Part shown: positions 24,691 through 64,000 of the stretch, in pieces | How positions within the stretch are numbered: the first letter of the stretch is position 1 | Layout of the letters: each line of letters starts with the position of its first letter | Assembly (NCBI GenBank): GCA_017163975.1 | Contig: JAFFSR010000136.1 | Location: 6,693,501 to 6,757,500 of the forward strand | Length of the DNA: 64,000 nucleotides | Reading direction: 5' to 3' | From: Anastatus disparis | Lineage: Eukaryota > Arthropoda > Insecta > Hymenoptera > Eupelmidae | Notes under the pieces: generated by a model | Databases searched by the model: none | Told to the model about the DNA's origin: nothing | What the model saw: the letters and a program-made list of their open reading frames with translations, nothing else | Translations under genes and position numbers: made by a program

Positions 24691-25432
24691 GAGTTACTCT
24701 TGAAAATTTATAATAGTACTACTGAATTTAATTACCGTTACTAAAATTGACTACTTGGATTTACCAAGCTTAGTCGTGATAAAAAGATATCCACAAGATA
24801 ACAAAAATAATAAATTCGAACCTATGTATAAGGCTAGCTAAAGTCAACAAAATTAAACACTTTAAAAGCTAACATTTAACCCAAACAAAATGTTGAAAAG
24901 GCAATCAACTAGCATATATATTCAAAATTTATAAAGTACAAAATGAATAAATATTAATGATGGACAATTTTTTTATATTAAAATCACATTTAAATAAATA
25001 TAAAAAAATAATGAAACTCAAAGAGCTCTATGAGAAAGCATTCCGCCAAAGCACTTGGCAGCGTTTTTGAAATTATTAAAATTACAACGAAAAATTCTGT
25101 TCACAATAAATACGTAAACTTATTGAAATCATACATCAAAATTCAAAAACAAATTTTAAATATTCTTCTTCTTTATATATATATATATATATTCGCTAAG
25201 AAAATAATAAATTTACGTAATTACTTTTAGTATGAGAAAAAAATAATATATGACTAATTATTCATGCCCAAAGAAGTCTTTTTAGCATTTTAAAAAATAA
25301 TTAGATTCAGCATATTTCTTAACAACATACAAGGCGATAACAGAAAATGATACGTATAACATAAAAGTTTCACAACCAACAAAGTTGAAAAAACTTTATT
25401 TTTACTGAATTATATCCCACTTTGTTTAAGGT
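24691..25432. other. AT-rich intergenic DNA
   Basis: Nothing recognisable except a (TA)n run at 25177-25192. The ORF at 25030-25230 lacks support. Confidence 0.5.
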
Positions 25433-26181
25433 TGTTCTGGCTATACAGTCTGTGTCAAAAGTTAGTATTTTCGATAATGGTTTATATTTTTGGGTAGAGA
25501 GGGTTTATTCAATTTTTCACATAGTAATTTATTAGATAATATTAAAACAGTCATTTTAAACCTTGTTTCATTTAAATATAACAATTTATTAAAGAGTTAT
25601 AGCATTTTAAAGTTTATAACTTTTACCGAAATTTAATGTAATCATAAACAAAGGTGCCAAAGTTTCAAAAATGATTTTATTCGACGGCAACAAAGTTTAT
25701 TTTGTTCAGTTTAAAATTTGTAATCTATTGACAAGGATAGAATTTCAATTTTTATTTTTTACTTAAATTCATTGTCGATTTTCTACAATAAAACAGTGAG
25801 TACCATCTGAGACATATACATTTTTTTGTAAACAATTAGCAATAAATTTGATTAAAAAATAAAAATTGAATCTCCATCCTTGTCAATAGATTCTAAATTT
25901 TAAAATGAACAAAATAAACTTTGTTGCTGTCGAATAAAATCATTTTTGAAACTTTGGCACCTTTGTTTATGATTACATTAGATTTCGGTAAAAGTTATAA
26001 ACTTTAAAATGCTATAACTTTTTAAAAAATTGTTATATTTAAGTCAAACAAGGTTTAAAATGATTGTTTTAATATTATCTAATAAATTACTTTGTGAAAA
26101 ATTGAATAAACCCTCCCTACCCAAAAATATAAACCATTATCGAAAATACTAACTTTTGACACAGACTGTATAGCCAGAACA
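25433..26181. mobile_element. Mariner-like long foldback element B
   Basis: Arms of about 340 bp (25433-25774 and 25840-26181) are near-perfect inverted copies around a spacer of about 65 bp. Inside the arms is TACAGTCTGTGTCAAAAG, resembling Tc1/mariner ends flanked by TA, but the symmetry continues outward through GTTCTGGCTA, so the true end may be TGTTCTGG. No transposase is encoded. Arm identity is much higher than in element A, so it is younger or its arms have been homogenised. Confidence 0.85.
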
Positions 26182-27767
26182 TCCTCAAGATGAAAATTGA
26201 ATTTGAATGTCGTGATTTGTGGAAAAGTTAACGAACTCCTTTATGATGAGTATTTATCATTATTATTATTATAAGGCACTCCGGTGTCAAAGCGTGAAAA
26301 AAAATTATTTTCAATTTGAATGTTGAACATCGTTTCTGTAGTATTTACGTAATTCTTATCATTTTTTATTAAACAAATTATTATTATTTATTAAATAAAT
26401 GATACATAAATTCAATCAACATAAAAAATAATATTTCTGATAGATTTTTAGAAAATTAATTGCTATATCTTACAATTTTACTTCTACAAATTACAGATTT
26501 TCAATAAAATTCATCTATAATTCAAAATGTGAATTCAAATTGAATTTTGACGAATTGGTATCAAATGCTGCTATTTGAGTAAAAATCGACAAATACTATA
26601 TGATGCTTAAAATATTTGTGTTTCAATTTTTATGATCAAGATACACAATAATAATACATACATGACTAAACACAATAATAAAATTATTAAATTATTAAAA
26701 AAACTACATTATTTTCTTACTTTTATTTGTCCTACAAACTGTTACTTCATATATTACTTAAAAAAACATTGGAAACCTCCTTTACAATACTATAAAAAAA
26801 CTGTAGTTTCTTTTTACTCCATTTCACACCACCACATTATCTCTAAAGCAACTAATTCAACTTCATAAATCCAAGTTAACAAGTGCCCATATAACCTCAT
26901 ATTCAAATCGAGCAATCATAAGAAGAAAAAATTGCACGACGATCCGATAATCCATAAGCTTCAGAATCAACAAGCGAATCCTCTTTAATAGATTCCTTAA
27001 ACTTAAAGTACACTCCATATACTTGAGCTATATAACGTTTCAAATAACAGTAGAAGCAACAGCAGCAGGTTATAGGCAATGAATTTTTTTCGAAAACATA
27101 ATGCTTCCGTTTATAATAAGATGAAAGCTACCGAGATAAAGTTCATATTATACTATTAAACAGATATTGTTTATATATATAAAAGTAAATGAATCAATGC
27201 ACATTATAAACGTCTTTCGCGTGTATACACATAAGCGTTATAGAGAGAATTTAATGCTTTATGAGTAATCCTCTTTCAAAGTCTCACCGATAAGATATGT
27301 TTATTTAAATGCGGAAAAGGTTTTTATTGAATCGAGATCGCGCAATCAGATTAAAGGTATATACCAGAGGCTAAATCTTTATATTATGCATTGGAAAAAG
27401 AAAGAAATAAATAAACTTTGTCACGGGTGTGGCACATTTGTATAATGTTACTTTTTATTGCATATAGGGTTAATTTTAGATTTTAATGATCTTGTATTTA
27501 TATGTTATATTTAAACTTTTAAAATATTGTCATTTGGATGGTTAAGCCTTTGACAAAGTTGTTTCTTTTATTCTATGGTTGTTGGTAAAGATTATTAATT
27601 AAAGATAATATAGAACTTGAAGTTCTTGTGCGGTATCTTTTGAACTTAGAATCACATTTTATAAATTCAAGTTATTTAAATTACAATGATACTTATTTTT
27701 TTTATTTTATCAATTGAAAGATTTAAGGAATTAAAAAATTATAACTCACGGAACCAGTCTAATTTTA
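26182..27767. other. AT-rich intergenic DNA
   Basis: No gene. A mixed island at 26880-27300 contains short CAG-type triplets. The ORF at 26632-26868 starts ATGATCAAG but is low-complexity. Confidence 0.5.
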
Positions 27768-34828: not shown

Positions 34829-37320
34829 TTAACATTGAATTTTTTTCGTTTTTTCCTTAGAACTTGTGTTTTTGGTCATGCTTACATCAGGCAAAGTTTT
34901 GACTTTGCTATCACCACTATTTTTTGTCTTTTCTTTAACTTTGAATTTCTTCAAATTAATTTTCTTTTATCAACAATCTACAATATTATATAAATAGTGT
35001 TATGATATTATTTTGACTGTGAAATACAATGTAATACAATAAATAAGTGCAATTTACCTGTAGTTGGAATTGTCTGAGACTCATCAATTTTAAAATTTCT
35101 GGATTTCACAATGTCTTACGGATTTGGATTGCGAATTTCGTACCATTGGTAACTTTTGTACGCTTTACTAAATAAAGCAAGAGGGAACACTTCAATGTAT
35201 GATTTTATAAATTCCTAAAAGAAAAAAAACATGATATTAATATTGAATGCATTTAATAATTTTAATTTAGTACAACTGTTAATTAACCTGTAATGGTCGT
35301 TGGATTCAATATAAATTTAACCAGAGTCGAGATAGGAATAGCACCTTTGATGCATATCCTTGAATGTCTTCGATTTTTATTGATTAAATTAGTTATTGTT
35401 CGTTTTGTAAAGGCTTTCGTAATGTTACGAAAAGAACATTCAGGAAACCCCTGGAACAAACGTGAGAAGCCCACGAATCTAGTCATAAGATATTTGATTA
35501 TGACTATGTTCATATCTTTCTTGATCGAATTCGCTTTCGTCATGAGGGTAATACTGAACCAAGTCCACTATGATAAATTAAACAAAGGGTAAAAGGTAAT
35601 ACTCTATCGGACTGGAACGATGGTTGCTTTAATCATTGTCTGTCAGAATAAGATGCGACGAGTTTTTATATATCCTCACGCAAATCAAATATACCGCCTA
35701 ACAGCTGAGCCGTAGTTCCGATCTCAGCCGCTATACGCCGCTGCTCCCGCAAGAGGAACAGCGAGCTCCAGAGCATATAAAGAGCTAAGGCTCAACGAAG
35801 AGGCCAAGCTTTGCAGACTAAGCTCTCCCTCACTCTTCACCTAGTGGACACTCACTGAGAGACTTTTTGGGGCGAGAGACCTCTGGTAGTGTAGGGCCCG
35901 GCGCCTCTAAAATACATGTTGCTAACCAGATTTTTGTACTCTATAACTTCATTTTCATTTCCGCCAGTTACCTCTATCAAATGCTCTACTGAAATTTTCT
36001 GCACTGATCTTCTCGTCCTTTTTCGACACAATAAGTTTTTATTTTCTAACTTAAAAAAATTGTTTGTCTCCAGAAAATTAGAGTAACTTATATTAATTAG
36101 CTGAGTGATTTTAAGGGATGTGAAGCGATTCTATAATAGTACAATGTTTTGATTAAATAAATGATACAAAAACAATTAATTCATGGCATTCATATGCACA
36201 TACATTACTCACGGCTGGCGATGGTAAATCAGATTGGTGTGTGGATTGAAGTGGAAGCTGCTCTACAACTCCGTCTTTCTATTGATTTTCAGTGATGTCA
36301 TCATCATTGCCGCTATTAGTTGCATTTTCTTGATGTGATTGTCGATACTGTTCAGTCCTTCTATAACGACTTGCTGATTGGTAATTCTTATCAGAAGATG
36401 AACAAGTTATCATTACATAAAAAAATGTTGATGATCAAGATCACTTACAATGGTCAATTGCTGTTCTTGCTGTTAACGATAAACAATCTCATCGTCGTCG
36501 TCGTCAAAAGCTGGTGGAGAGTCTACCTACATTTCTTGCCGATTCTGAGCAACTGTAGCAGGATTATATGCGAGAGGTACATGAAGAAGCTGCTGTGCAA
36601 CATTATCAGCAGAAAGTGCTTGACGACGAGATGCTGGAGGACCTGTTGAATTCGCAGTAAAACGAGGAGTACACGTATCATACGGGCGACTCGTTGATGT
36701 CGAAGCTCCATAATGGTGTTCTGGTTGAGTATTCGATGAGCGAGGATTCAACATTTACGACGGTGTTAGACCAGCGACTATTTTTCGATCCTCGTCGTCG
36801 TCATAATCATCATCAGAAATATGAATTGCAAGAGAAAAATTTCCTCTTCTTTGTTTATTAACCGATGACACAGATGTCTATACAGAAAAAATTTTAGAAT
36901 TCAATAACAAAGTAAAATATAAACAATTTGATAATCATAGTGATTTACCATTGGCCAATATTTATTAGTTTGGTATATCAACTCGCTGGATAATGCTTTT
37001 TTTGTTTTTGTAACAGCGACATCACGACGTCGATAGAAGAAATTTTACGACGTAATTCCTCGTCACTAGTAGCATCTTCTTTTTGGCGAGTTTATATAGA
37101 TTTAGAATATGAAGAATCAACAGGAAATGACCTGAAGGCATCTTTATCATCTTCTTCTTGAAGACGATATTTTTGACGAGAATAATAATTATCTTTCGGA
37201 CGGCGGTAGATATTCTCAAACGAAGCACCTTCTTCCGGTCGATGAGGAGGATGACTGAGAATCTGGCTATAAAAGCCAGGATCAGAGAGCATTTGCCAGA
37301 CAGTCTCGTCTTGGCAGCCC
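34829..37320 (-). pseudogene. Multi-exon protein gene with in-frame stops, unrecognised
   Basis: About seven exons read leftward: 37320-36948, 36877-36449, 36386-36213, 36049 to about 35933, 35567-35288, 35214-35058 and a last exon ending at the stop 34829-34831. The introns are short with GT...AG ends (GTAAAT, GTAAGT, GTGAGT, GTTAAT donors), and joins between the first five exons are all phase 0. Encoded features are an N-terminal charged segment, an acidic run (SDDDYDDDED), a Pro/Gln/Ser-rich stretch, a second acidic run (DDDDDE), a basic segment and a Lys-rich C-terminus. Exon 1 has a TAA and a frame change, exon 2 has TAA, TAG and TAA, exon 3 a TAG, and exon 6 a TAA and a phase mismatch. 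Exons 4 and 5 are open. I do not recognise the family. It is most likely a decayed duplicate of a nuclear or regulatory-type protein gene. Confidence 0.5.
35650..35915 (+). mobile_element. GC-rich block with TATA, solo-LTR candidate
   Basis: A sharply GC-richer block inside an intron of the broken minus-strand gene. It holds CCGCCTAACAGCTGAGCCG, CGCCGCTGCTCCCGCAAG, a CATATAAAG box (35773-35781), a downstream stretch like a transcribed leader, and GGGCCCGGCGCC near the right edge. No frame is open on either strand. The layout of U3-like, TATA and R-like parts suggests a solo LTR, but I could not find matched TG...CA ends with a target duplication. Confidence 0.35.
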
Positions 37321-37849: not shown

Positions 37850-39700
37850 CGGACGAAACAGAAAAAAATACAAAAAATCAGAATAATCAAATGCCTTGCT
37901 GAAATCAAATAACAACAGCAACGTCACGTAGCGTCTGTCCATATTGCGTCTAATGTCCTCAGTTATGTCCAGTTCGAAATCCAGTCTGATAAGGGTCCAG
38001 TAGCTGTCGCATAGACAAGTAATTGTAGAATTGATCATAGACTAGACGTTCAAGAACCTTGGACATAAAAGATGATAAAGAAATTGGCCTAATGTCACCA
38101 AAAGCTTGAGGAGAGGAGATTTTGTTTATTGTAGTAATCAGCGAGATCTTCCAGCATGAAGGAAATAAAGACTCACGCAATGAGTCGTTATGAATGCGAC
38201 ATAGGCTCAATGACCGGAAATGCCGCACGGACGAAAGATTGAGGAACAGCATCAAACCCTCTGGCCTGTGAAGCTGAATGACAAACAGCCATCCATACCT
38301 CTTCCAAAGTAACTGCATTAAACTTAAACATGGGTTTAAGTGGTTCATCCAGAGCAAGTGTATTCATGTAATCAGAAATGGAGGGGACCAGAGTATCAAA
38401 CGCAATGCCACCAAAATACCGATTCAAATCATTAATTGAAAAAGAATGTCGAGAGTCACTACTGCTGGAACATACGCCAAGGTTCTAGAGTTCTTTCCAG
38501 ATCTGTCTTGCGTCAGTAATCTTAGATAGTCTGTCGTGGTAATACAGTAATTTAGCTGATTCGATGCATGAATGAGCCCGATCTCTAGCATCTCTATAAC
38601 ATATAAGATCAGCACGCAGTCTAGTACGTTTGAAGCGTCTGTAAAGCCTATCTCTCTCAGAGATTAAGCGGTGATGCTCAGAGGTAAACCACGGACGATG
38701 ACTCTTGCTCTGTCGAACACGCCTAACAGGCACAAACCGTAAGATAGCCTCATTAAGATGAGTGTATAGACACCCAAGGCGAGCCAAAAGAGAAGAGTCA
38801 CCGCTACACATTGCATAATTTAGCGATCGAAAATAATCGAGCAGAGCAGTTTCATCAACCGCTTTATAATCACGATAAGTAAAATTATTAAGTTTAGGCC
38901 TAGAGAGAGACGACTTTACAGTCACAGCAATAAAGTCATGTCCGTCAATAAATGGTACATCAGTCTTCCAATAGTGAAGCAGTAAGTCATTGGCATCGAC
39001 AAGACACAAGTCGAGCCACGTATCAGAGGAATAAGTATGATGCGTAGGTCCATACGGCACAGAAAAAAGTGCATTTTCCTTAATAAGGCTCTTAAAGAAC
39101 ACAGAATCATCAGATTCAGAACACAAATTAGTGTTGAAATCTCCCAAAACTACCTTAGTACTATAATTGTGAATATGAGTGGTCAAATCAGGAATAAAGT
39201 CTGTGTTAGCCAAAAATGGAGCGAGAGGTGGTCTATAAACAACACCAACGAAAATGGGTGAAGCCAAGTCAGATGAGTTGACCTCACAGAAGAAATACTC
39301 AGGTAAACCAGGCTTACCACTCCAGCTTCCAGAGGATGAACAAAGACGCACAGAAGTGAGAGAGCAGTGTACAAATAAAGCAATACCACCTCCCCTGGTG
39401 TTACGATCCTGTCTATGAAGCACATACCCATCAAAAGCAATCAAAGAATCACAAACTATCTGGCCCAGTTTGGTCTTAGTAACAGCTATTACGTGGAAAT
39501 AAGGGCGAGAAGCCAAAAAGAGTCTAATCATCTCAATGAGCGCTCTAATAAAGTTGGCATTGAAATGACAAACTCCGAGACCATCTTTAGTAGTGAAATG
39601 ATCATGAATGACCGATGAAATAGTATTGTTTGAAGGAAGAAGTGTGTTAGAGTGAGAAGGAAGAGAGAATGAGCTTACACCAGTGTCAGATGTTAAGTGG
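37850..39700 (-). pseudogene. LINE ORF2: APE endonuclease plus truncated reverse transcriptase
   Basis: Non-LTR retrotransposon ORF2 in reverse orientation. The endonuclease domain is visible in order: TKTKL, GGGIALFV, VVYRPPL, LGDFNTNL, TWLDLCLVD and DGHDFIAV, the layout of apurinic-type endonucleases of CR1/Jockey-like LINEs. The longest intact piece is 348 codons (39531-38485); coding sequence continues in frame upstream to about 39700 without an obvious ATG. A TAG interrupts at 38485-38487. A frame change near 38190 leads into RT motifs (WKISLITTINK, DIRPISLSSFMSKVLERL, then LFDFSKAFD after another shift). Similarity ends near 37860, before the catalytic YxDD box. This is a dead copy. Confidence 0.85.
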
Positions 39701-43380: not shown

Positions 43381-43445
43381 CATTGTATTAAAAGTTAAGA
43401 CGAGACTTTTTATTGAAATGAAATTTTTTTGATGAAATTTTTTCT

Positions 43446-43752
43446 ACACGTATTTTAAATAACTCCTCGAAGATCGAAGAGCTCCTACGACCTCGAGTGT
43501 CTGGCTTCTTATATCTAATGTCTTCGAAATTGGTGTAAGGTATGACAAAACTTAGAAGAACGCCACCTAGTGATTTAAAATCGCTTTTGATGATCGATTA
43601 TGTTGGTTTGACTTTAAGTCACTAGGTGGCGTTTTTCATCCCTTAGTTTGTCATCCCTTATACAAATTTCGAAGACACATTAGATATAAGAAGCCAGACC
43701 CTCTGGGTTATAGAAGCTCTTCGATCTTCGAGGAGTTATTAAAAATACGTGT
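43446..43752. mobile_element. Foldback element C
   Basis: Arms of about 130 bp, outermost ACACGTATTTT and complement, include AACTCCTCGAAGATCGAAGAG, TCTGGCTTCTTATATCTAAT and a conserved CGCCACCTAGTGA block near the centre. It has no coding content and is non-autonomous. Confidence 0.8.
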
Positions 43753-43842
43753 GAAATAAACGTATTTTTGTCAATAGAGTCGGAATAAAGTATTATAAAT
43801 ACTCCTTATAAGACATTTTTATTGTAATAAAAATAAAAACCA

Positions 43843-47094: not shown

Positions 47095-50000
47095 CTAACA
47101 CTTCATAACGTACAATTGTCCGTGATTAAAAACGTCTCTTCGTAAATCAATAATTATACTATCAAATGTTTGTCCTTGAGATTTATTAATCGTCATAGCA
47201 AAAGCTAATTTAATTGGGAATTGTCTTCTTTTAAATGTAAAAGGATATTCATTTTCACAGTATAATGTAATACGGTTTAGAAAAACAATATCTCCTGCCT
47301 TATCACCTGTTAATATTTTACATTTTAACAAATGATTAGAAAATTCTAGAATTTGCAATCTTGTGCCATTGCATAATCCTTCATTAATACTTATATTTCT
47401 TATAAGCATTACAATACAATTCTCTCTTAAACGTAATTTATATGGTGCTAAACTGGAAGGATTCAAAGAATTTAAATATTCTGGAAGAAGTATGTCATCT
47501 AATTCATCGTTATTGCAATTTTCAGTACTATCAATAGCTGTATATACGTGTTCACTGGATAAGTTTAATAAATTAGTTACTTGTTCATTTATTTCATCTA
47601 CATCGATATTTCGAGCAGAGAGGATTGCACATTTGCTCATATCGTTAAATCGTTCTTCTTTAATTAAATTTCCGAAAATATGCTGTGCTATGTTAATATT
47701 TGGTTCAAGTATACAATGTTCAGGAAGAGTTAAATTGTCATGTTGATCATTTAATGTTCCATCTCCAACTTTTAATAAAAAGTTTGCAAAATCAATTTCA
47801 TTTGTTAAAACTCTCATATTAATTGTAAGATAATATTTGTTAAAATATTTCCATAATTCACTATATTTAATACAAAGATTTAATGTTTCACTTCGCGTTC
47901 CACGAATTTTTATAGGCAGAAGTTGCCTAAAATCTCCTCCTAATACAATAATTTTTCCCCCGAATGGTAAATCGTTATTCATAATATGTTGCAGTGTCTT
48001 ATTCACTATTTCTAATGCATATCTTGGAGCCATGGGAGCTTCATCCCAAATAAAAACTTTTACTTTTTTTAAGAAAAGACCTTCCTTAGATTGTATTTTG
48101 ATATTTGATGATGAATCGTGAAACATAGGTACTGGTAAACCAAACGTCTTATGTACGGTTTTTCCTTTTGAAAGTAAAGTTGCTGCGATTCCAGTGAATG
48201 CCATTGAACATATTTCAATATTTTTCGAAATTAATAAACAATACAGCGTTTTATAAATAAAAGTTTTTCCAGATCCTCCTGGACCATCGATATATACACA
48301 ATTATTTCCTTTATATTGGTCAGTAGTAACTACATCAATAACTGAATCAACTATTACTTTTTGTTGTTGATTTAATCGATTGTACATTTGCTCGCCAAGT
48401 TCTGTCATTTGCTCAACTGGTAAACTTTCACTTTCTAACACAGCATAGTCTTGAACACGTTGCTCCATATTTGGAAAATCAGCCAATGATCTTCTTTCAT
48501 TATTTAACAAACTACTTATATGTGAATAAGCGATTTGATTACTTACATTTATATCATGTGTTCTTGCAAAATCTTCAGACATTGCATCTTTAAATTTATC
48601 CCATAATTCTTCAGGATGAAGTGGTTGACAATGTATTAAAATTCGAACGAATAATTGACGAAGTCGTATAGGCATCATCCATACCGTTGCTTCTTGCATA
48701 GCAGCAATCCATTCTTGATCATCTGCTATAAGTCCTAATGCTAAACATGCAGCAGAAAAAGTTGGTTGTATTTCACCATCCACTGTTTTTAATGAATCAA
48801 AATCAATAGCACCTTTTACATGCAATAACAACAATCGTAAATGAAAAAGTTCGTATTGAGTTGGACTAACAGAATACATCCGACCAATGCAATTAAAATG
48901 TTTTTTTCGAACTGTCCATTCTGAAACTGTAACACCATCAATTTTTTTTTTTTTTTATATACATAATGAAGTGGAATATCTTTGTAAAAATATCTCCTTG
49001 CTTCTTCATTATTTAGATTTAATTTAAAATAATCAATTAACATGCTGCTTGATTGATTTAAATTTTCTGTGTTAATTATTACATCGTTTGAAATTATTAC
49101 AGATTGTTCATTTGGTAAATGTATTGGTAATCGTATAATAGAATGGCTTTTATCTTGTAACGGCTTACTTAAAATTCGATAACAGGCTTCAACAGGTCCA
49201 ACATATCGAGTTTCTATGAAATCCTTAATTTCATCATGATTTATACTCCTTTCACTTGATTCTCCTATTGTTACTGTCGCAGCATCATGTCCTTTATAAA
49301 TGTACTTATATATATACTTAACGGATCGAATAGATGAAACTGTCTCTACATTTATATGACAATTAAAAATTTGTATTAAGGTTGGACAATATGGTACAAC
49401 CCATTGATTATCCACTACATAACCATTTGGTAACTTATAAGTTACTCCAGTCTCTTTTCTGCGGTATTCAGGATAACCATTTTCATCCATTTTTGTTTCA
49501 CGTTGAAATAGTTTAGGAAAATTTTTAGAGCATTTACCATTTTTCATACACCAATCTCCACATGGTCCATGTATCATATTTTTCAAAACAATATCTTGTA
49601 ATTGAGAGTTCTCAGCACCGGGAATTTCAGCTGAAATAAATTTGTCTACGATTTCAGGTGTTGTCATTTTATATCCGTGTGCTAAAGTAACTAACAAATG
49701 CATATGAGGTAAACCTCTTTTTTGAAATTCTATAACGTAAACATAAGCAGCAACCGCTCCAAAAAAGTTTTTTTTAACAATCAAATCAAGTAACCGATCT
49801 TTTTTTAAATGAAATATTCGTGCTACGATATCAGGTCTATCAGAAGGTTGCTGATTAGCTAGCAAATTTTCTTGAATTTCTGGCCATTTTGGGTTACATG
49901 TCATAGTAAGAAAAATATCTGGCTTTCCTTTATTATTGATTAAAGCCATTGCATCCTGATAGCATTGCTGCATATGACGCGGTGAACCAATAAAAGTAGA

Positions 50001-51182
50001 TGGAAGAATTATTGTTTTTGCAATTTGACCATTAATATCGTTAGCCGAATTCTGTAGATAATCGTGTAATAATAAAAAAGGATTAAACTCATCTGATCGA
50101 ATCGCAATTTGATATTTAATATAAGCCATACGTGTTACACGTCGATGATCATTTCTGTTATCATTAATGTGTCTTAAATCTCGGTGCCATCCTTGTGTAC
50201 CATAAGGATAAAACAATGGATAAATCCATGGTTCTACATTAGGGTCCATTGTGCTTACACATTGTAAATTTTTAGTATTTTTATTTCTAATTGTCACATA
50301 AGATTCTGGAATTTCGCCATCCGCCGTAGTTGAAAAAATAGCAGCTACTTCATTAGTTCGTTGAAAATTATATCTTCGTGTATCTGTACCTGGTTTCAAG
50401 GAAAACAATAATTGCAATTCAGGGAGATCATGCCCAGTATTTAATAATAATTGTTGATTTTGTATTTCTTGATTCATCATTTCATACGATTTCGCAAATA
50501 TGTTATTTTCTCGAATTACTTTATCTAATATTTCTAATGTTTGATAGTCAAGTCTTGAGGAGTTTCTAATTCTAATATCAATTGCCTCTTGTGGGTCAAT
50601 AATAAATAACTGTCCATAAGAAGGGCTATCATTTTCATATGGATACAAAGCCGTATTAATTTGATAATATATTTGTCCTTGAATTTTAAAACAATATGGC
50701 CCTGGTCGTATTGATTGAAAATTAATCAAATTTGCATTAAAAGAAGCAAATGATAATGAATTATTATAACAACGGATATGTCGATAAAAATCATCCGACA
50801 TTACATGAGAACCATTAAACATATCAAGAAGATCTTTAGGAAAAATAGGAATGGGTTGTAATTTAACTGTTCCGTGACTACAACAATCATTAAAAGATAA
50901 TCCTTTATTTGAAATTTTTTCTGAAATAAAATGCTTTGCATTACAATGCATACATAAAATATTCATTTCGCCTAAATAATCTTGTTCAATAATTAATGAA
51001 TGATTAATATTATCTGTTCAGTTTTGTAAATTTATTGATTCAGTGAGTTGCCTAAATTTTTCATGAGTAGTTTTGCGCGCAGCCTGGCGTCTCAATCTTT
51101 GATTTTCAGCAATTCTCAATCGTCGATCTTGTTGGTAAATATTTTCTTCCTCTTCTGAACGTATTATTTTTTTACGCGGCAT
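47095..51182 (-). CDS. Helitron Rep/helicase transposase, lightly damaged
   Basis: A rolling-circle transposase of about 1,350 codons in two main frames. It starts at ATG 51182 with a basic segment. A TGA breaks it at 51018-51020, and an internal Met at 50966 opens a 716-codon frame: an N-terminal CxxC cluster (CMHCNAKHF), the Helitron-like N domain, the HUH endonuclease motif (RGLPHMHLLV, near residue 425) and the paired Tyr region (YIYKYIYKGHD). A poly(A) run at about 48940-48957 shifts the frame. The second part (594 codons from 48879) is a PIF1-type helicase with GPGGSGKT, IWDEAPM, LGGDFRQLLPI and INKSQGQTF. It ends GQLYV then a small deletion before the usual ALSRVR motif and TAG. The protein would nick and unwind DNA for transposition; this copy needs at least three repairs to be active. 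Confidence 0.9.
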
Positions 51183-54889: not shown

Positions 54890-56420
54890 TTTAAGTCACG
54901 TTTTTGTACTCTTATACAGAATAAAATAATATCTATCTATCTAATTAGAAATAATACTAGTACAAGGGAAAACCCCAAAAAGAAAACAACGGCAATAAAA
55001 AACTAAGGAGCCGAAGCTCTTGAGCGTGTATGCACCGTAGGCGGGCCAGCTCGGCAAGTGTATATGCACTTATATACACCCATATATATGTGTATATACG
55101 CACGGTCATAACTATATATGAATGGATATACCCAATTATGTAAACAAGGTATACATCCATTTATATATAGTAATCGGATTAAACAATTAAAATTTTTATA
55201 TTTTACATTCACGCAAAATTTAATTTTTATTACTCATGTTCAATAATAATAGGAAATCACTCGGGCCGTCTACGGTAAAAACCGAACAATCACTGTATCT
55301 GTTTATGCGTAAAAGGAATAATAAAAATCTCTATTAAATAAAACATTTCTGAATTTTATCAAAATACAAAATATTTAAAAATTATTTTCTCATAGTTCTC
55401 ATCTTATTTTTCCAAAGATGAAGAAAAAAACGAACATGCGCTTAGTTATCGGTACAGCTGAAAACTATAAAAATTCCTAAACCGAACAGATACGAAGACC
55501 GTTCAATATATATATATATATGTATGTATGTATACACATGTCACATAGAAACGAAAACCAAACTTTTCTCTTCTATGCGACGAAAATTTTATAATTTTTA
55601 TTTCCAAATATTTACAAAATAATTTACTTTTAATCATAATCATAAGGAAATAGATTTAATAATAATTAAGATTAATTAATTAATATACGCGCATTATAGC
55701 GAATTTCAATATTAAAAAAAAAAATTAGATGCATAAAAGGTTTTTAACAAATAATGTTTATTTGTTTTTAATCATTATTTTTATATAAAGATAAAGAAAA
55801 AATATACAATATTAAGTAAATAAAGGGAAACAATTCTAGCCTAAAATATTTCTGTTTTAACTTCTTTCCTTGATTTCTTAAAGGATGCATGCACTTATAA
55901 CAACGCACATCTGTAAGCTATAAAACCTCGCTTCTTTAGATGTACGGTCCTGCAAGCATTCTTTTATTTTCAAATTTTATTTTAACTTTTTAAACAAAAC
56001 GATTTTCCTTTTTAATCTTATTATTATTCGGTCATAATTGTTCCCCTTTTTTTTTAAATAAGCAATAGAAATAATTACAATTAAGCTAAGAGAAAATGTC
56101 AAGAAAAAACAAAAAGCACAAGAAGAAAAATTTAAAAAAAAAAAAAATATATTTAAAATAAATAAAAATAAAAACTATTAGCAAAGTGCGATTCATAAGA
56201 AACTGCAATTTTACGTATATGTCAAATAATATTGCAAGTAAAATTAAATAACAAAGAAATATTACATCAACTTCTCTTTTATTTTACGTTAAATTCTAGC
56301 AAAAATAGGCATATTTTATATCGTTCTAAAGAGAATTTTAATTGCAATATTATAGAGACATTTAATTTAGACCGTAGTTAGTTAATAACAAATTATAATG
56401 ATTTTTAATAATTTAAGAAA
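54890..56420. other. AT-rich intergenic DNA
   Basis: No gene. An imperfect palindromic stretch at 55060-55100 (GTGTATATGCAC...TATATACAC) and TA/TG runs near 55505-55530 are the only structure noted. Confidence 0.5.
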
Positions 56421-56729
56421 AATTGTTAAAGATCAAGAGACAAAATAGGGCTTCTCTAAGGGAGAGGGCATATCTTTCCAGATATACCCCCCTCTGTTGC
56501 AAGAAAAACTTCTATACCCTAGTTTCTCTCTTCGTCTTACACGTTACTTAAGGCCAAAGTTCAAATTTTGGGAGGGCTTAAGGTCCCTCTCTGACCTCTT
56601 AAGAAAAGCAAAGGCCAATAGAAATTATGTAAAAAAGCGTTAAGAGAAAACAATTTTCTCTAATTGGAGAAAATTACTAGATAGTTTCGAAGATTATCTT
56701 ATAGTATGCTACAACGTTAGTTGTTTAGG

Positions 56730-56736
56730 TATATAA
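56730..56736 (+). promoter_or_regulatory. Retroelement TATA box
   Basis: TATATAA followed by a GC-richer stretch, with a likely start about 30 bases on (GATGCACACTGACT, near 56758-56762). The R region then opens with a divergent copy of the leader hairpin at 56784-56808. Confidence 0.55.
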
Positions 56737-56783
56737 GGGGCCTGACAGATCGATGCACACTGACTCCTTAATTTTTCTTGCTC

Positions 56784-56808
56784 GAGTTCACTTCTCGAGA
56801 TCAAACTC
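56784..56808 (+). repeat. Divergent hairpin copy in R region
   Basis: GAGTT and AACTC pair around TCACTT-CTC-GAGATC, keeping the CACTT-NNN-GAGA apex of the array copies but with a CTC triloop. It lies just after the predicted transcription start. An alternative fold pairs the two CTCGAG boxes at 56781-56786 and 56794-56799. Confidence 0.5.
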
Positions 56809-57199
56809 AGATTTTTGCTCTAAAAAAACTTAACGTTTAAAATTCAACTTAGAATTTTTTTTTTTGTTTCATTTTTACTTTTCTCAAAAAATAACCTAGA
56901 AGTTTTTCTCATTTTTTTTGATTTACTGTTTGAGTTTCCTCTCAGAACAGAGTCTTACTTATTGCAACCTAAAAGATACTCAAAAAAAATTTTTACTTTT
57001 CTTTCGATTTAGATTTTAAAATTTTAAATACTAAGTAAAATAAAAAAAAACTACTTCATTAATTTTGTATCAGTTTTTATTGAATAAATAACTTTAAATT
57101 TAATTAACATCTTCTTATTTTTAAAAAAAGAGTTCCCTTCATTTCCTTTAAAAGTAAGTAATTTTTATAACGTAAATAATTGTACAATCAAATAAAAAA

Positions 57200-58690
57200 A
57201 CTCAAAGAAAACATAAACTAACCAAACAAGTTAATACTACGGTCACTTCACGAGAGACCATAATATTTCCTTGTTGGTTAGCACTTAAATTTTTATGCCA
57301 AAAGGGCAATCTAGTTAATAATTTTGAACTTTTTTTTCTAAATAGTATTCTTTCACCTTTAAATAAAATCGTCATTTATTTGACTTCGCATATAATTTTA
57401 TCTTTTTGATTTCTTGAAAGGGAAGAGATACAAGGTTTAAAAATATTTTTGGTCACTTCACGAGAGACCGAGTATTTTTGAACCTCACAGAAACTTTATG
57501 TCAGCTGAACATTGGTCACTTCGGGAGAGACTTTTGTTTGGTTGTTATAAATTTCTCTCTTCTTTAAAATAGAAATTAAAAAAGAAGACGTAGACTTTTT
57601 CATTTATTTAAAATAAATTTAGAGAATTTTGATTAATAAAAGGAAAAAATTCCTTCCTAAGGGGTTTGTACATTAATTTGTTTAATAAATAATAAAAATT
57701 TTCATGAAATAAAAGAAAACATAAACTAACCAATGAGTCAATATTACGGTCACTTCATGAGAGACCATAATATTCCTTGTTGGCTAGTAGTAAATTTTAT
57801 TGCCAAAAGCGCAACTAATTTTGTAGTTTATATCTAAAAATAAAATTGTTTATTCATTTTTGTGAACTTTTGGATTTCTTGAAGAATTACAAGGTTTAAA
57901 AATATTTTTGGTCACTTCACGAGAGACCGAGTATTTTTAAACTTCACAGAAACTTTATATCAGCTGAACATTGGTCACTTCGGGAGAGACTTTTGTTTGG
58001 TTGCTATAATTTTCTCTTTTCTTTAAAATAGAAAATTAGAAAGCAAACGCAGATCTTTGTTTTTCATTTATTTATAATAATTTTAAGGAAGTTGATTGAT
58101 AAAAAAAAAATAAATTTTCCTCTTAAAGGATATCTGTATATTAATTTTTTTGATAAGAAATAATTTCACACAAATTAAAAATATATGAATAGAATAAGAG
58201 AAAAATAAGCAACGACTAACTAGCACAACGGACATCTCAATAATATTTCTAATACATTTGGGACGGGCGTACCCAAGAAAAGTAATAATAAAATTAAAGG
58301 TAGTTTTATAATTTCGATTTATTCTGGTCACTTAAGGAGAGACCTTTATGAATTCAAATTATAACGCGTAGGGTAGTTACAAAATAAAAACAAATAGGTG
58401 AGTCATTCAAAAATAACTCGGTCACTTCACGAGAGACTAAGTTATTATTGACTCAATAGTGTCGAAAAGAGTTACTTTTATTTAATTCTATCTATTAAAA
58501 TTTTCATATCACATTTTCATAAATCTTGTTACACTTTTGTTTGCTCTGGTCACTTAAGGAGAGACCTTTGCGAATAAAATTAGTAACGCGCGATAGGTAG
58601 CACACAAAAATCTAATTAGGAAAGCCATTCTAAAATAGCCCGGTCACTTCACGAGAGACTCGGTTATTAATGACTTTTTAGAACGAAATG
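57200..58690 (+). repeat. Array of ten constant-apex hairpins
   Basis: Copies of GGTC-A-CTT-NNN-GAG-A-GACC start at 57241, 57451, 57514, 57748, 57910, 57973, 58326, 58420, 58548 and 58642. GGTC/GAC(C/T) closes every copy; the second stem CTT/GAG surrounds a variable triplet: CAC in five (57241, 57451, 57910, 58420, 58642), CAT in one (57748), CGG in two (57514, 57973) and AAG in two (58326, 58548). Each copy sits on a longer lower stem of 7-20 pairs that differs between copies. The copies at 58326 and 58548 share a 3x3 internal loop and differ by pair-preserving changes (T-A to C-G, A-T to G-C). The array grew by duplication: about 510 bp (57205 and 57716) and about 222 bp (58326 and 58548). 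There are no long ORFs in it. It is presumably transcribed as part of the retroelement leader. Confidence 0.85.
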
Positions 58691-59001
58691 TAATTTTATC
58701 GATTAAATATGAAAGCTAAAGAATTAACACATTTATTCATAAAATAAATTCGCATAATTTCAAATCTACAAAATATTAGAAATATCTTTCTTTTGCGTTT
58801 TTTATAAATTAATTATTAATAACTGAATAAATAAATAAAAGTAACTGCAACAAGAAATATCATAATAAAATTTGATTAGTTTTCCTAAAATAAAAAAAAA
58901 ACGGAATTAATATATGCGTCCTAAATAATCAAAATACAGAATACGTTGACTGACGGGAACTTGATACCGAGTTTTACTGCTAGGCAGTGACTCAAAAACT
59001 A

Positions 59002-59024
59002 GGATAACATTGCGCCAGTTATCC
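59002..59024 (+). repeat. Hairpin before the primer-binding site
   Basis: GGATAAC and GTTATCC form a 7-bp perfect stem around ATTGCGCCA. A second small stem, ACTGC-TAG-GCAGT, lies just upstream at about 58976-58988. Confidence 0.6.
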
Positions 59025-59121
59025 ACCCAAAAAAATAACATCATTTTGTAGTTACGAAAGTTACTATAAAATTAGATGTTCCAATATCGAAATTAAAACC
59101 TTCGATTGCGGTTATCACATT

Positions 59122-59139
59122 TGGAGGCCAAACCGGAGA
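59122..59139 (+). other. Candidate primer-binding site
   Basis: TGGAGGCCAAACCGGAGA follows a CA (59118-59119) and TT spacer, the position expected for a tRNA primer site at the end of a 5' LTR. The complement ends in CCA as a tRNA 3' end would. The tRNA was not identified. Confidence 0.4.
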
Positions 59140-59288
59140 GATGGTTAAGGGCCCGAAAAAGTCAATGTAGAAATTTAAAATTATTATAATATAAAAAAAT
59201 ATACTATTTAATTACACATATAGAAAAAATAATATTAATAAAGCGACCGCTAAAATATTTAACTTTTCTTTTCTTTTTTTGTTTTTAG

Positions 59289-60061
59289 TGGAATACCGTG
59301 CGCGTAATAATCAAGGTAATAGGAAGAGTAGCGCGAAGAGAAAGCGACAATTCAATCGCGACGCGTTGTACATCCAGCAGGAGCTGGCAAAAAGAGGAAT
59401 CTTTCTAGAGTTATCTGATATAACGCCTCAAAATATTGAGTATTGGCGTTGTAACGTTCAGCGCGGGCTAGAAAAGGGCGAACAGAGCCCTGAAGCCGAT
59501 ACATCTGATCGCGTCGATAATGCATTAAAAGACACGGCAAATATACAGGTCAATCAGCCGGGAAAATCATTGAAAATAAAAAATATCGAAAAAATAAATA
59601 AAAACATAGCCGTGATTAAAAACGGCGAAATTATAAGGAAATTCAATAAATTAAAAACGCGTGAGAACCTAAGATGCTCAAAGTGCAAAATTAGAACAAA
59701 GAAAGGTTGTTTTAATTGCTTTGAGAAGAGGTTTTATCACACCGAAAAATCAGTTGATAACAAATATAATTTCCAAGTGAGAAACAAACCATCCAAAAGT
59801 GACGAGTTCTACGCCTTACACTGTAAAGAGATCCAGCGGTTTAGTCTTAGACAATACGATTATCGCTATTTAATTGACGGGAAAGCGTTAGAAGGAATTT
59901 ATTTCTTCAATAATAAGAAAAAACGTGAGCCCCGAGAATGCGTAAAAAAAGAGCATAATCTAAGGTTAATCGAATTACGCGAAAAATTCAACATCAAAAA
60001 CTTTATTAAAAAAATAACAAACAAAAGGAATAAAAAAATCGCACTTATATTGTATGATTAA
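59289..60061 (+). CDS. ORF0 of the retroelement, no ATG, unrecognised
   Basis: An open frame of about 257 codons with no methionine codon anywhere in it. It follows a strong acceptor-like tract (TTTTCTTTTTTTGTTTTTAG) ending at 59288, so it is best read as a downstream exon; an upstream exon ending in A would create an ATG at the junction (A + TG). The protein is very basic, with a central Cys cluster (CSKCKIRTKKGCFNC, a CxxC-x6-CxxC pattern) around residues 140-155 and Lys/Arg-rich ends, which suggests nucleic-acid binding. No family is recognised. It lies between the candidate primer-binding site and gag, where such elements usually have no gene. Its intact frame over 770 bases argues for recent selection or recent insertion. 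Confidence 0.55.
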
Positions 60062-60822
60062 ATAATGCTTTTGTAATTTTTTTTTAAATTTTAATAAAGC
60101 ATCTTCTGCATTATAAAAATAAAATTTCATATAGTTTTGTTAATTAAAAAAACCTAATACCATTAACCCTATTCCCAAAATTTTCTATTATAAAAAGAGT
60201 GGAAATACGCTCTGTCATTTTTTTTTTATTTTTATTTAGTATTAAATTCACTTTTTATAGATATACATAATCATTTTAATTAATATCTTTCTTATAATTT
60301 CAAAGTTATTGATCTTTTCAAGTTTCTATTTTACAGACGTAGTATGTCAGTTGTTTTTTTTACCTATCATTAATTCTTTGAATTACTATAACCACTAACG
60401 TAAATATTTATATTTTTATTATTAATTTTTTTTTATTTATTTTAAAAATACACTTTCCTACTTTAATCTTTAATAATAAACAAATAACAGGATTAAAATA
60501 TAATTCTTTTCACTTTTATATTTTTGTTTAATTTACTAATTTACTATATTTTAACTTACAGGTATCTAACTCTTACCTACACGTTTTTGCGCCAAGGTAT
60601 CTAAAAGCTTTAGCAAAAACAAGGTATTAGTTATTATTAATTAAAATTAATTTAAAACATAAATTAATGATGAAAAGATAATAGATTATGTAAAAACGAA
60701 ATAAAATAATGATTTTACATTGATTTAAACCTTACTCATATAATGAATTGAGCGGTTAACAAAGCAAGTCATTAACCTGTCATTAAGAAAACAGTAAATT
60801 GATTACTGTAGTGTTTAGCTCA
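60062..60822. other. AT-rich gap within the retroelement
   Basis: No ORF. A possible mini-exon at 60562-60595 is bounded by TTAACTTACAG and GTATCT, and the GGTATCTAA sequence is repeated on either side of it. Confidence 0.35.
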
Positions 60823-61272
60823 ATGAGGCTAGAAGATTTAGCATTCGAAGTATTTTTAGAAAATCATTTCGTAGCAACCGTTAACATAGTAAATATTTTT
60901 GAAAAATCAGGTTTAAAAAATTTTAAAATTTATTTTAATCACAATTCCGGTTTAAATAAAGGATTATTAAAAACGATAACAGTAGATAACCTAAAATACG
61001 AGTATTTGGTTGCCGAAAACGATTGCATTAGTGCTTCAACATTCTTCGAAGCTAATTCAAAATACTTGGACGGTATAAACGCTTATATCGAGCAAATTAA
61101 ACGCGGCTGGTGCACTGCGTCCTATCTTGAAAAAGATAGTAACGGATATTACATTGACGCAGGAATCGCCGATTATATTAAATCTTGCGGAAAGATTTTT
61201 AAAACAATTAAACCTATTGAAATAATAAAAATTCAGAACTCGGGCGCATATATAAGCGTTGCGTGGAGTTAA
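60823..61272 (+). CDS. Small ORF ahead of gag, unrecognised
   Basis: 149 codons from ATG 60823; the frame is open a further 8 codons upstream without ATG. It encodes MRLEDLAFEVFLENHF... with mixed alpha/beta composition and C-terminal IKTIKPIEIIKIQNSGAY. No transmembrane segment, zinc cluster or catalytic motif was identified. The stop is 18 bases before the gag ATG, so gag could be reached by reinitiation or a separate transcript. Codon composition is less AT-extreme than the surrounding DNA, like gag. It may be an accessory protein of the element or an N-terminal Gag-like part; its function is unknown. Confidence 0.55.
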   Translation: MRLEDLAFEVFLENHFVATVNIVNIFEKSGLKNFKIYFNHNSGLNKGLLKTITVDNLKYEYLVAENDCISASTFFEANSKYLDGINAYIEQIKRGWCTASYLEKDSNGYYIDAGIADYIKSCGKIFKTIKPIEIIKIQNSGAYISVAWS

Positions 61273-61290
61273 TCGCACCGTCACACATAT

Positions 61291-62724
61291 ATGTCACATC
61301 AAAGGGTTACGCGAAATAAAACAAAAACGGACCCTGATTTAAAGATTAATCCTGAGGGTTTAACATTCCCCATAAAACCAAGAAGATCGCATAGCACTCC
61401 AGCTGAACGAGACAGATTAAATATAAAAAGAGAAAGGGTTCCAAGTGAAACACTTAATTATTCACTTAGCCACTCTTCTATTAGCTCGGACGACAATAAA
61501 ACTTTAACTAATAAAACTATAATAAATAAAACTATAATAAATAAAACCCAAATAAAGCCGCGTGATAGCAAAGAAATCAAAATGGTTGGAAGTGACTTAG
61601 GACTGCAAGCTGCTGCGTTGCCAGCTAACCAAACAGTATCTATAAAAGACGCTGTTAAGGTCGTGCCAGAGTTCGATGGCAGCAATATTCTTTTTAGCCA
61701 GTTTTTAGAAGGCTGTAGCGAAGCTAAATTGATGATAGATCCTGCAGCCGAAGGAAATCTTGCTAGATTAATACGTAGTCGATTGTTAGGAGAAGCAAGA
61801 CAAGCACTGCTTGGGCAAACCTTCAATACGATCGACGAATTAAAAGATTTTCTAAAAAAAATATATGCGCCAGCCAAAACTGAAACACAGTTATTGGGAG
61901 ATTTAGGGAATGAATATCAAAAAGACGACGAAAGTGTAATATCTTTCGCCAATAGAATTCGTGATATAGGCAGCAAAATCATCGAAGCCCATAAAATAAA
62001 TAATAATGGGGTAGCCGATGCTCCATATAGGACTAGAATAGAAACAACTATTATAGATTGTTTTAAACGCGGGTTAAAGTTTGAAATAGAACAGCGTTTG
62101 CAAGATGCCGATAATGTCAATGATATAGTCACGAACGCCATTACTGCCGAGCGCAAGCTCGCAGCGCAGAAAGCTTTAAGAAAAGAAAATGAACTTAAGA
62201 GCTTACCCAAAAGAAGGATATTCGCATGTCAAATATGCCGTGAAGAAGGTCACGAAGCCAATAAATGCGAACAAATAAAAAAATCTAGTCCGGTGTGCCA
62301 ATACTGTAAAATTCCCGGGCATAATATAGAAACTTGCTTTCAACACAGCAAGGACTTACTCAAACCAAAATTAATATGCCAATTGTGCAATAGAGAGGGG
62401 CATGCCGCGAAGCAATGCAACTTAAACAAGGACATAACGTCTGTTAATGTTATTTGCCAACTATGTTCTCGACCAGGGCATAGCGCAAGTACGTGCTACA
62501 TACGTAGAGGTGCAATTAATCAATTTCACGAACAAATTGACGCGAGAAATAGATTAACGTGTCAAATATGTCAAAGAAACGGGCATACTGCCGCTACTTG
62601 CAGAATACAACAAGGCGAAATGCTAGAAAGATGTCAAATCTGTCAAAGATCTGGCCATGCGGCAATAAATTGCCGAAGTCAACCTTTAGGTAATACTAAA
62701 GAATGCCGTTATTGCAAAGATTAG
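61291..62724 (+). CDS. Gag polyprotein with six CCHC zinc knuckles
   Basis: 477 codons starting MSHQRVTRNK. The N-terminal 90 residues are basic and Ser/Thr-rich, with a short coded repeat of NKTII units. The capsid-like domain follows (VVPEFDGSNILFSQFLEGCS, LLGEARQALLG, DELKDFLKKIYAP, ISFANRIRDIGSKI). Next is a nucleocapsid part with six C-x2-C-x4-H-x4-C knuckles (CQICREEGHEANKC, CQYCKIPGHNIETC, CQLCNREGHAAKQC, CQLCSRPGHSASTC, CQICQRNGHTAATC, CQICQRSGHAAINC). A seventh begins (CRYCK) but TAG cuts it at 62722-62724, and the remainder (RLGHSIEEC) is in the -1 frame. It would package element RNA into particles. Most elements have one to three knuckles, so this is unusually many. Confidence 0.85.
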   Translation: MSHQRVTRNKTKTDPDLKINPEGLTFPIKPRRSHSTPAERDRLNIKRERVPSETLNYSLSHSSISSDDNKTLTNKTIINKTIINKTQIKPRDSKEIKMVGSDLGLQAAALPANQTVSIKDAVKVVPEFDGSNILFSQFLEGCSEAKLMIDPAAEGNLARLIRSRLLGEARQALLGQTFNTIDELKDFLKKIYAPAKTETQLLGDLGNEYQKDDESVISFANRIRDIGSKIIEAHKINNNGVADAPYRTRIETTIIDCFKRGLKFEIEQRLQDADNVNDIVTNAITAERKLAAQKALRKENELKSLPKRRIFACQICREEGHEANKCEQIKKSSPVCQYCKIPGHNIETCFQHSKDLLKPKLICQLCNREGHAAKQCNLNKDITSVNVICQLCSRPGHSASTCYIRRGAINQFHEQIDARNRLTCQICQRNGHTAATCRIQQGEMLERCQICQRSGHAAINCRSQPLGNTKECRYCKD

Positions 62725-62897
62725 GACATTCTATAGAAGAATGTCGAAAAAGAATGACAAATGAAAGACTGCGTGCGGAAAACCACCAGAGTCTTCCTGG
62801 CAAGAGTGCGACAGGAGAGACTCCGAAGAAAGAAACGCGCTCAGCACACCTAACGCAAGTAGACGGGCTACTGTCCGAATTAATACCGTTGAACTAA
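62703..62897 (+). CDS. Continuation of Gag in the -1 frame
   Basis: This frame completes the seventh zinc knuckle (C-x2-C-x4-H-x4-C across the junction) and continues with a Lys/Arg-rich linker until TAA at 62895-62897. It could be reached by a -1 shift near TGCAAAGATTAG, or the gag frame may simply have lost one A in this copy. No classic X-XXY-YYZ heptamer is present, which favours mutation. Confidence 0.5.
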   Translation: MPLLQRLGHSIEECRKRMTNERLRAENHQSLPGKSATGETPKKETRSAHLTQVDGLLSELIPLN

Positions 62898-63256
62898 AAA
62901 GTTTAGAGAGAGTAATACCATATATATCCTTCGTGATACCTGGAGTCGAAGCCATAACTAATTTTATGCTAGATACAGGATCTGAAGTTAATATAATTAA
63001 GAAGGGAATGCTATCTGAAAATGATAAAATTGATACAAGTATCATAACAATCATATCTGGAATCTGTGCAACAGCTATAACCTCACTGGGTACAGTTAAA
63101 TTAAGGTTATTAGGACATATAGTGTCATTCATAGTTGTAGAAAACAGCTTTCAAATACCATTTAGTGGATTACTAGGCTCTCAATTATTTTATGAAACGG
63201 GAGCAATAATTGACTTCGAATCGAAACAATTTTTTTATGGGCGAGCACGTTATTAA
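62765..63256 (+). CDS. Retropepsin-like aspartic protease 1
   Basis: This frame is open from 62765. The domain starts near 62918 with ISFVIPGVEAITNFMLDTGS; the catalytic Asp is in the DTGSE motif at 62972. It then has VNIIKKG, the IISGICAT flap-like region, TSLGTVKLRLLG, VSFIVVENSF and SGLLGSQLFYETGAIIDF, the normal order for a retroviral-type protease of about 100 residues. It is entered from the Gag frames by a shift in the overlap 62765-62897. It ends TAA at 63254-63256, overlapping the start of the next frame by about 20 bases. Confidence 0.7.
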   Translation, partial: KTACGKPPESSWQECDRRDSEERNALSTPNASRRATVRINTVELKSLERVIPYISFVIPGVEAITNFMLDTGSEVNIIKKGMLSENDKIDTSIITIISGICATAITSLGTVKLRLLGHIVSFIVVENSFQIPFSGLLGSQLFYETGAIIDFESKQFFYGRARY

Positions 63257-64000
63257 TTTTAAACAAAACGGAAACCCATTTTTTAATAATAAAATTGGGA
63301 GTATCATAAATATAGGTAGTTCAGACAAAGAAAATTATCTACCATACATAGATATTTTAAATCCCCCAACTTCAACGCGTGGGAGGATGATGATTGATAG
63401 CGGTTCTGAAGCTAATATTATTAAGCTCTACCTGCTACCTGAAGAGTGCATAATAGATCAAGACAAGGCAGTATATCTCAAGGGGATTGGTAATCGTATG
63501 ATTACAACCCTTGGGACAACTGAAATAACATTGTATGGCGAAAGCGCAATTTTTCATGTGGTACCTAACGACTTCGCAGTCCCATGCGAAGGAGTTTTAG
63601 GCGCCTCATACCTCTCTCAGACAGGTGCAATCGTAGATTACAAAAATAAAACTATAAGAATTGCAGATAAGAGTGCAGTATTAAGGTTTAACCAAATACA
63701 ATCAGTCACAGAAACATTGATGAAAGATGAAGAAAATTTAAAAATCTTGGTAAATAAACAATTTCTAAATCCTCAGGGTACTTTATCCAGTATTACGAAT
63801 AAAAGTAACCTGTTGCATACTGAATCTAATTCTAGAGACAGTTTAAGTACGAATTACAGTACTCAAACGAACACAAGCATGAAATCAAATAATGAAACAT
63901 CTAATCTTGATGATGAAAATCAGTTACCTTCACCGGAAACTGACGATTTTAGTACTTTAAAGGAATATTACGCGAGTTTTAATACTGCGGTAATTCCCGT
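63237..64000 (+). CDS. Pol N-terminus with a second retropepsin-like domain (partial)
   Basis: The frame opens at ATG 63237 and is uninterrupted to the window edge (254 codons). It carries a second protease-like domain: MMIDSGSEANIIKLYLL with catalytic Asp at 63396, YLKGIGNRMIT, TTLGTTEITLYG, FHVVPNDFAVPCEGVLGASY and GAIVDYKNKTIRI. Motif by motif it parallels the first protease, so the two are tandem homologues. A Ser/Thr/Asn-rich spacer follows (QTNTSMKSNNETSN). Reverse transcriptase should follow beyond the window. It is in the +1 frame relative to protease 1; the T7 run before ATGG could allow slippage, or the ATG could be a restart. Confidence 0.75.
   Translation, partial: MGEHVINFKQNGNPFFNNKIGSIINIGSSDKENYLPYIDILNPPTSTRGRMMIDSGSEANIIKLYLLPEECIIDQDKAVYLKGIGNRMITTLGTTEITLYGESAIFHVVPNDFAVPCEGVLGASYLSQTGAIVDYKNKTIRIADKSAVLRFNQIQSVTETLMKDEENLKILVNKQFLNPQGTLSSITNKSNLLHTESNSRDSLSTNYSTQTNTSMKSNNETSNLDDENQLPSPETDDFSTLKEYYASFNTAVIP

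Follow-up and report, generated by a model that had tools for sequence, protein, structure and literature searches.

Packaging and export signals are usually found in unspliced RNA. The psi packaging signals of HIV-1 and MLV are structured RNAs upstream of gag that are absent from spliced RNA, and they consist of a few unlike stem-loops. The RRE/Rev, RxRE/Rex and MPMV CTE systems rely on stems that contain purine mismatches and lie in unspliced RNA, each a single compact structure, and in the first two a basic protein is made from a spliced message. The coat-protein hairpins of MS2 and PP7 are small, contain an unpaired A and are read by a structural protein. For the insect element gypsy, two reports describe an insulator in the 5′ UTR that consists of 12 Su(Hw) sites (PMC4276936, PMC7168160), and the first of these, a 2014 review, gives both the export signal of the unspliced RNA and the psi packaging element as unknown (PMC4276936). 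Two further reports describe a springer env exon that is joined to an upstream AU dinucleotide, so that splicing completes the start codon (PMC12992720), and a tRNA-like element in the HIV-1 leader, a hairpin that resembles an anticodon arm (PMC11181671).

The hairpin array described here and the gag gene that follows it 2.6 kb downstream are on the same strand, within the 64-kb stretch of DNA that was analysed (the window). As with psi, the placement is upstream of gag and removal by splicing is predicted, but the array presents one tip ten times with a free triplet, whereas psi is built of a few dissimilar stem-loops. Like the RRE, RxRE and CTE, the array has purine-mismatch stems on a predicted unspliced RNA; its ten hairpins are separate and stand before gag, in contrast to those structures, which are single and lie elsewhere in the genome. 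The MS2 and PP7 hairpins are likewise small, but the array has a symmetric A/A mismatch and a free triplet, and no sequence relation is claimed. The gypsy insulator, like the array, brings about a dozen sites together in the 5′ UTR of a Ty3/gypsy element from an insect, but its sites are degenerate DNA, whereas the array has a constant tip on co-varying stems; the HIV-1 tRNA-like element has a single U-rich loop, whereas the array has ten loops with varied triplets; and in springer env, as is predicted here, an upstream exon provides part of the AUG, although there AU is joined to env and here A is joined to a basic ORF before gag. The coordinates of all features are listed in Table 1.

Table 1. 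Features of the hairpin array and of the element that carries it, in window coordinates
Feature	Position	Strand	Detail
TATA-like box	56730..56738	+	putative, from sequence
Predicted 5′ untranslated exon	56762..57153	+	0 ATG in 392 nt; start assumed
Predicted intron enclosing the whole array	57154..59288	+	donor GTAAGT, acceptor 19/20 pyrimidines; consensus only
Module A1, 3 hairpins	57204..57695	+	self-comparison and pairwise alignment
Hairpin tip A1-1	57241..57259	+	triplet CAC
Hairpin tip A1-2	57451..57469	+	triplet CAC
Hairpin tip A1-3	57514..57532	+	triplet CGG
Module A2, 3 hairpins	57712..58163	+	self-comparison and pairwise alignment
Hairpin tip A2-1	57748..57766	+	triplet CAT
Hairpin tip A2-2	57910..57928	+	triplet CAC
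Hairpin tip A2-3	57973..57991	+	triplet CGG
Module B1, 2 hairpins	58323..58453	+	self-comparison and pairwise alignment
Hairpin tip B1-1	58326..58344	+	triplet AAG
Hairpin tip B1-2	58420..58438	+	triplet CAC
Module B2, 2 hairpins	58545..58675	+	self-comparison and pairwise alignment
Hairpin tip B2-1	58548..58566	+	triplet AAG
Hairpin tip B2-2	58642..58660	+	triplet CAC
ORF-A, predicted second exon, basic, Cys-containing	59289..60061	+	256 aa plus junction Met
ORF-B, 149 aa	60823..61272	+	18 nt separate its end from the gag ATG
gag	61291..62724	+	six CCHC knuckles intact; by comparison with relatives, frame interrupted inside a seventh
Two overlapping ORFs	62765..63998	+	each with a retropepsin-like domain

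An exact-match scan of the 64-kb window found ten copies of GGTCACTTNNNGAGAGAC, all on the + strand and spanning 57241-58660, where about 0.02 would be expected by chance; when up to two mismatches were allowed, a single extra match appeared, at 35846. The ten exact copies follow the formula GGTC-A-CTT-NNN-GAG-A-GAC(C/T), the constant part of which is a 15-base motif. Apart from GACT in place of GACC in 4 of the 10 tips, neither the short stems nor the A/A mismatch vary, and the triplet takes the forms CAC (five tips), CGG (two), AAG (two) and CAT (one). These results bear out the initial annotation, which had described ten tips within 1.4 kb with constant stems, an A/A mismatch, four triplets and GACT in some copies. 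The copies are not independent, however, and in this respect that description is corrected. Self-comparison of the window showed two tandem duplications, with the starts of A1 and A2 about 508 bases apart and those of B1 and B2 222 apart, and the hairpin spacing is the same in both duplicates (63 for the last two hairpins of A, 94 for the two of B). At the sensitivity of the self-comparison, the A and B modules have only the hairpin tips in common. Because the ten hairpins form tandem modules of 3, 3, 2 and 2, they represent at most five lineages.

In pairwise alignments, 384 of the 466 positions aligned are identical between A1 and A2, and 145 of 226 between B1 and B2. Outside the tips and triplets, 19.8% of positions differ in A and 43.1% in B. 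With independent sites and one rate per module, 23.3 changes would be expected in the duplicate tips compared, and 0 of 80 bases had changed; the probability of this outcome is about 4e-13 if sites are independent and equal. The triplet had changed at 1 of 15 positions between duplicate hairpins. By this computation the tip is under selection. Gene conversion confined to the tips could also explain their lack of change, but it is not likely.

The lower stems were compared with shuffled sequence. Copy-specific lower stems, as had been claimed from copies folded by hand, were predicted in 10 of 10 copies, with 17-21 pairs within 30-nt flanks. Against dinucleotide-shuffled flanks, the folding energy gave z values of -3.2 to -5.8 in all ten copies, and for each copy at most 2 of 200 shuffled flanks matched the real energy. 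The summed energy was -206, whereas 200 shuffles averaged -106 and went no lower than -124. Energy is the better measure, since the pair count alone was equalled by some shuffles in most copies. In the ten-copy alignment, 128 of 139 cells were paired (92.1%), compared with 75.2% after shuffling and 39-54% in slid registers. The covariation check that the initial annotation had proposed, applied here to the window's ten copies only, gave a score of 0.471 against 0.172 for shuffled alignments, with 0 of 500 shuffles as high and slid registers at 0.05-0.18. Two other measures in this alignment are weaker because shuffles reached them: there were 7 pairs with double changes, compared with 5.5 after shuffling, and 78 of 500 shuffles had as many; for the number of pair types, 14 of 500 did.

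Since the ten-copy alignment contains duplicates and its structure comes from the same sequences, a fairer test was made within duplicates, in which the structure was taken from one copy and scored on its duplicate, in both directions. In the first direction 81 of 92 pairs were kept (null mean 74.2, p 0.0024), and in the other 85 of 99 (null mean 76.6, p 0.0016). Among the pairs that had changed, 14 of 25 and 15 of 29, respectively, still paired, while 11 and 14 were broken; in the first direction, 7 of 11 double changes preserved a pair. Breaks and double changes alike fall mostly in the B duplicates. The lower stems have therefore changed but tend to stay paired, and conserved structure with compensating changes, as in packaging signals, was found here in comparisons confined to paralogous copies. 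Taken together, the unchanged tip, the flank energies, the pairing kept in duplicates and the covariation score agree with the earlier proposal of selection on RNA structure, for which the computational support is good.

Both strands of the stems were folded, and 263 pairs formed on the + strand compared with 203 on the - strand. More pairs formed on the + strand in 7 of 10 copies and on the - strand in two (57241 and 57748), with one copy equal; by energy, the - strand was better in three copies. The + fold contains 39 G-U pairs, which the choice of strand itself favours, and 6 A/C mismatches. The first hairpins of A1 and A2 fold better on the - strand, and a covariance model of the hairpin gave weak matches of 17-21 bits on that strand, at 57225-57281, 57729-57787 and 58401-58461. 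The + strand is thus favoured, but not uniformly.

The array had been assigned to the leader of a retroelement, and the gag with CCHC knuckles downstream on the same strand agrees with this. Its start at 61291 is the one common to the 38 gag relatives found, of which the two with species names are both from the wasp genus Leptopilina. In the seventh knuckle the frame is interrupted, whereas that of the relatives continues, so that this copy is probably dead; its hairpins are intact. The two RVP-like domains that follow (E 0.0058 and 0.024, both under the Pfam cut-off) are 39% identical over 107 aa. A CCHC gag followed by protease is the arrangement of a Ty3/gypsy-type carrier, and the RT/integrase region lies beyond the end of the window. 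The tandem retropepsin-like domains in overlapping frames may reflect a protease duplication in the retroelement. No repeat of 55500-57200 was found within the window, beyond which the 3′ end of the element lies, and none of the TGG sites inspected by eye was judged to fit a tRNA primer site; the 5′ LTR is accordingly putative. On the basis of the TATA-like box, transcription was assumed to start near 56762; an ATG occurs at 56753, just upstream of that point.

Two GTRAGT sites occur in 56401-61300, one of which, at 57154, precedes the array. Three pyrimidine-rich acceptors (at least 16/20) occur in 57001-61300, and the best of these ends at 59288. Joining these sites would place A (57153) before TG (59289) and create the start of ORF-A (ATG GAA TAC). 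The array is thus predicted to lie within an intron whose removal would create the AUG of a basic 257-aa protein. The predicted intron enclosing the array and the putative splice-started basic protein, like the module duplications, are new relative to the initial annotation. The 392 nt that precede the donor are free of ATG, a count as low as in 0.27% of 2254 overlapping controls, and the predicted intron has 14 ATGs on the + strand where the mean is 36, with none of 2184 overlapping controls that low. A further 7 ATGs in the 761 nt of 60062-60822 is below average. The scarcity is therefore not confined to the exon, and its extension through the predicted intron fits a ribosome-scanned leader at least as well.

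ORF-A has no ATG of its own. It contains 62 K+R and 31 D+E in 256 aa, with 9 K/R among the first 24 residues, and it is open over 256 codons, a length reached by 0 of 20000 shuffles; the length of ORF-B was likewise reached by 0 of 20000. The homology search found no homologs of either ORF, their sequence relatives in the PDB were no better than E 0.13, and the predicted folds were poor (mean pLDDT 36.9 for ORF-A and 34.8 for ORF-B). A cysteine cluster is present in ORF-A, which directly follows a strong splice-acceptor-like tract. AATAAA occurs near 60095 and 60121, after ORF-A, which could instead be the last exon of a separate gene.

The explanation that we favour, with moderate confidence, is that the array is a multivalent cis-acting signal in the unspliced RNA of a Ty3/gypsy-like insect retroelement, for packaging or export. 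It is probably a repeated docking site that marks the full-length RNA of the element. Each hairpin would present one short surface made of GGUC, the A/A mismatch, CUU/GAG and the free triplet, and the lower stem would mainly have to pair. Because the triplet varies and there is no constant unpaired G, recognition is more likely to occur through the A/A mismatch and the short stems, and the reader may be one kind of protein that binds the mismatch-widened upper stem. The tenfold repetition of a single site points to a protein whose binding gains avidity. Since the array lies between the predicted donor and acceptor, it would be absent from spliced mRNA and present in full-length RNA, as would be expected of a signal that singles out full-length RNA for packaging or nuclear export. 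Candidate readers are the multi-knuckle Gag, the basic protein of ORF-A and an export factor of the host. A sharply defined, repeated hairpin in the expected place would provide a concrete insect candidate for such a signal, with a minimal site of 19 nt.

As a special case of the docking-site explanation, a Rev/RRE-like circuit may sort the RNA of this insect retroelement, with the array as target and the protein made by removal of the array's own intron as reader; we consider this tenable but rather doubtful. The ORF-A protein would bind the hairpins and export or protect the unspliced RNA, and if the circuit is true, splicing makes the ORF-A protein while the full-length RNA retains the sites. 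In position and charge ORF-A fits such a reader, as a candidate by sequence alone, and both its long open frame and the AUG that would arise at the A|TG junction favour the circuit; start codons completed by splicing are known from springer env (PMC12992720). On the other hand, ORF-A has neither a homolog nor a PDB relative in the searches, and its fold model is poor (pLDDT 37). It is unlikely that the array instead brings ribosomes to ORF-B or gag across the 4.5-kb leader, by an IRES or a shunt. The predicted intron still holds its 14 ATGs, the array ends 2.6 kb short of gag, and an IRES does not typically show one identical tip many times over. The scarcity of ATG along the leader is strand-specific, which would suit such a translation element, and two IRES have been reported for gypsy (PMC4276936).

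A DNA-level array of protein sites would resemble the gypsy insulator in place and in number of sites (PMC4276936, PMC7168160), and the constant 15-base motif is in keeping with it. A duplex site, however, needs neither the flank complementarity seen in 10 of 10 copies nor co-varying stems, and this explanation is quite improbable. Drawn as a 7-nt loop UU-NNN-GA whose triplet occupies the anticodon positions, the tip fits the canonical anticodon loop pattern Y32 U33 N34-36 R37 A38, and the hairpins might therefore capture a tRNA-handling enzyme by mimicry of an anticodon arm. The HIV-1 leader offers a precedent (PMC11181671). A fit of this kind arises by chance in about 1 of 64 cases, though, the triplets differ (CAC, CAT, CGG, AAG), the stem contains an A/A mismatch, and ARAGORN found 0 tRNA genes in the window, so that mimicry is very improbable. 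That the array has no function and consists of inverted repeats multiplied by tandem duplication is hardly credible: the modules are duplicated and foldbacks are common in the AT-rich window, but the absence of any tip change and the retained pairing already disfavour this reading.

Searches for relatives of the hairpin covered RNA families, viral and genome contigs, and the literature. In 56000-60500, Rfam gave one match at E up to 10, with 21.3 bits against a gathering threshold of 50. The bare tip was found in 10 viral contigs and 36 genome contigs, and these occurrences were taken as chance because each contig had a single match and the best reached only 28 bits with the covariance model. 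The ten copies, from which the model was built, scored 49-61 bits, compared with at most 28 in the 46 bare-tip loci, 36 of which matched it at E up to 1. The covariance-model search found no further convincing hairpin copy in the window, and none of 60 stretches examined among viral contigs was confirmed as a gag relative. In the literature search, the motif strings appeared in no paper found and no title concerned such a hairpin array. A miRNA cluster was set aside, since the constant part is the tip and not a stem arm, and the Roquin and Smaug hairpin consensus, compared by eye, did not fit all of the triplets together.

Other elements are also present in the window. Two overlapping ORFs of a Helitron, at 47095-50966 on the - strand, encode Helitron_like_N and PIF1 helicase domains, and a LINE-like element endonuclease (Exo_endo_phos_2, E 6e-5) lies at 38485-39531 on the same strand. 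Long self-complementary foldbacks occur at 25426-26188 (91%) and 43438-43760 (80%).
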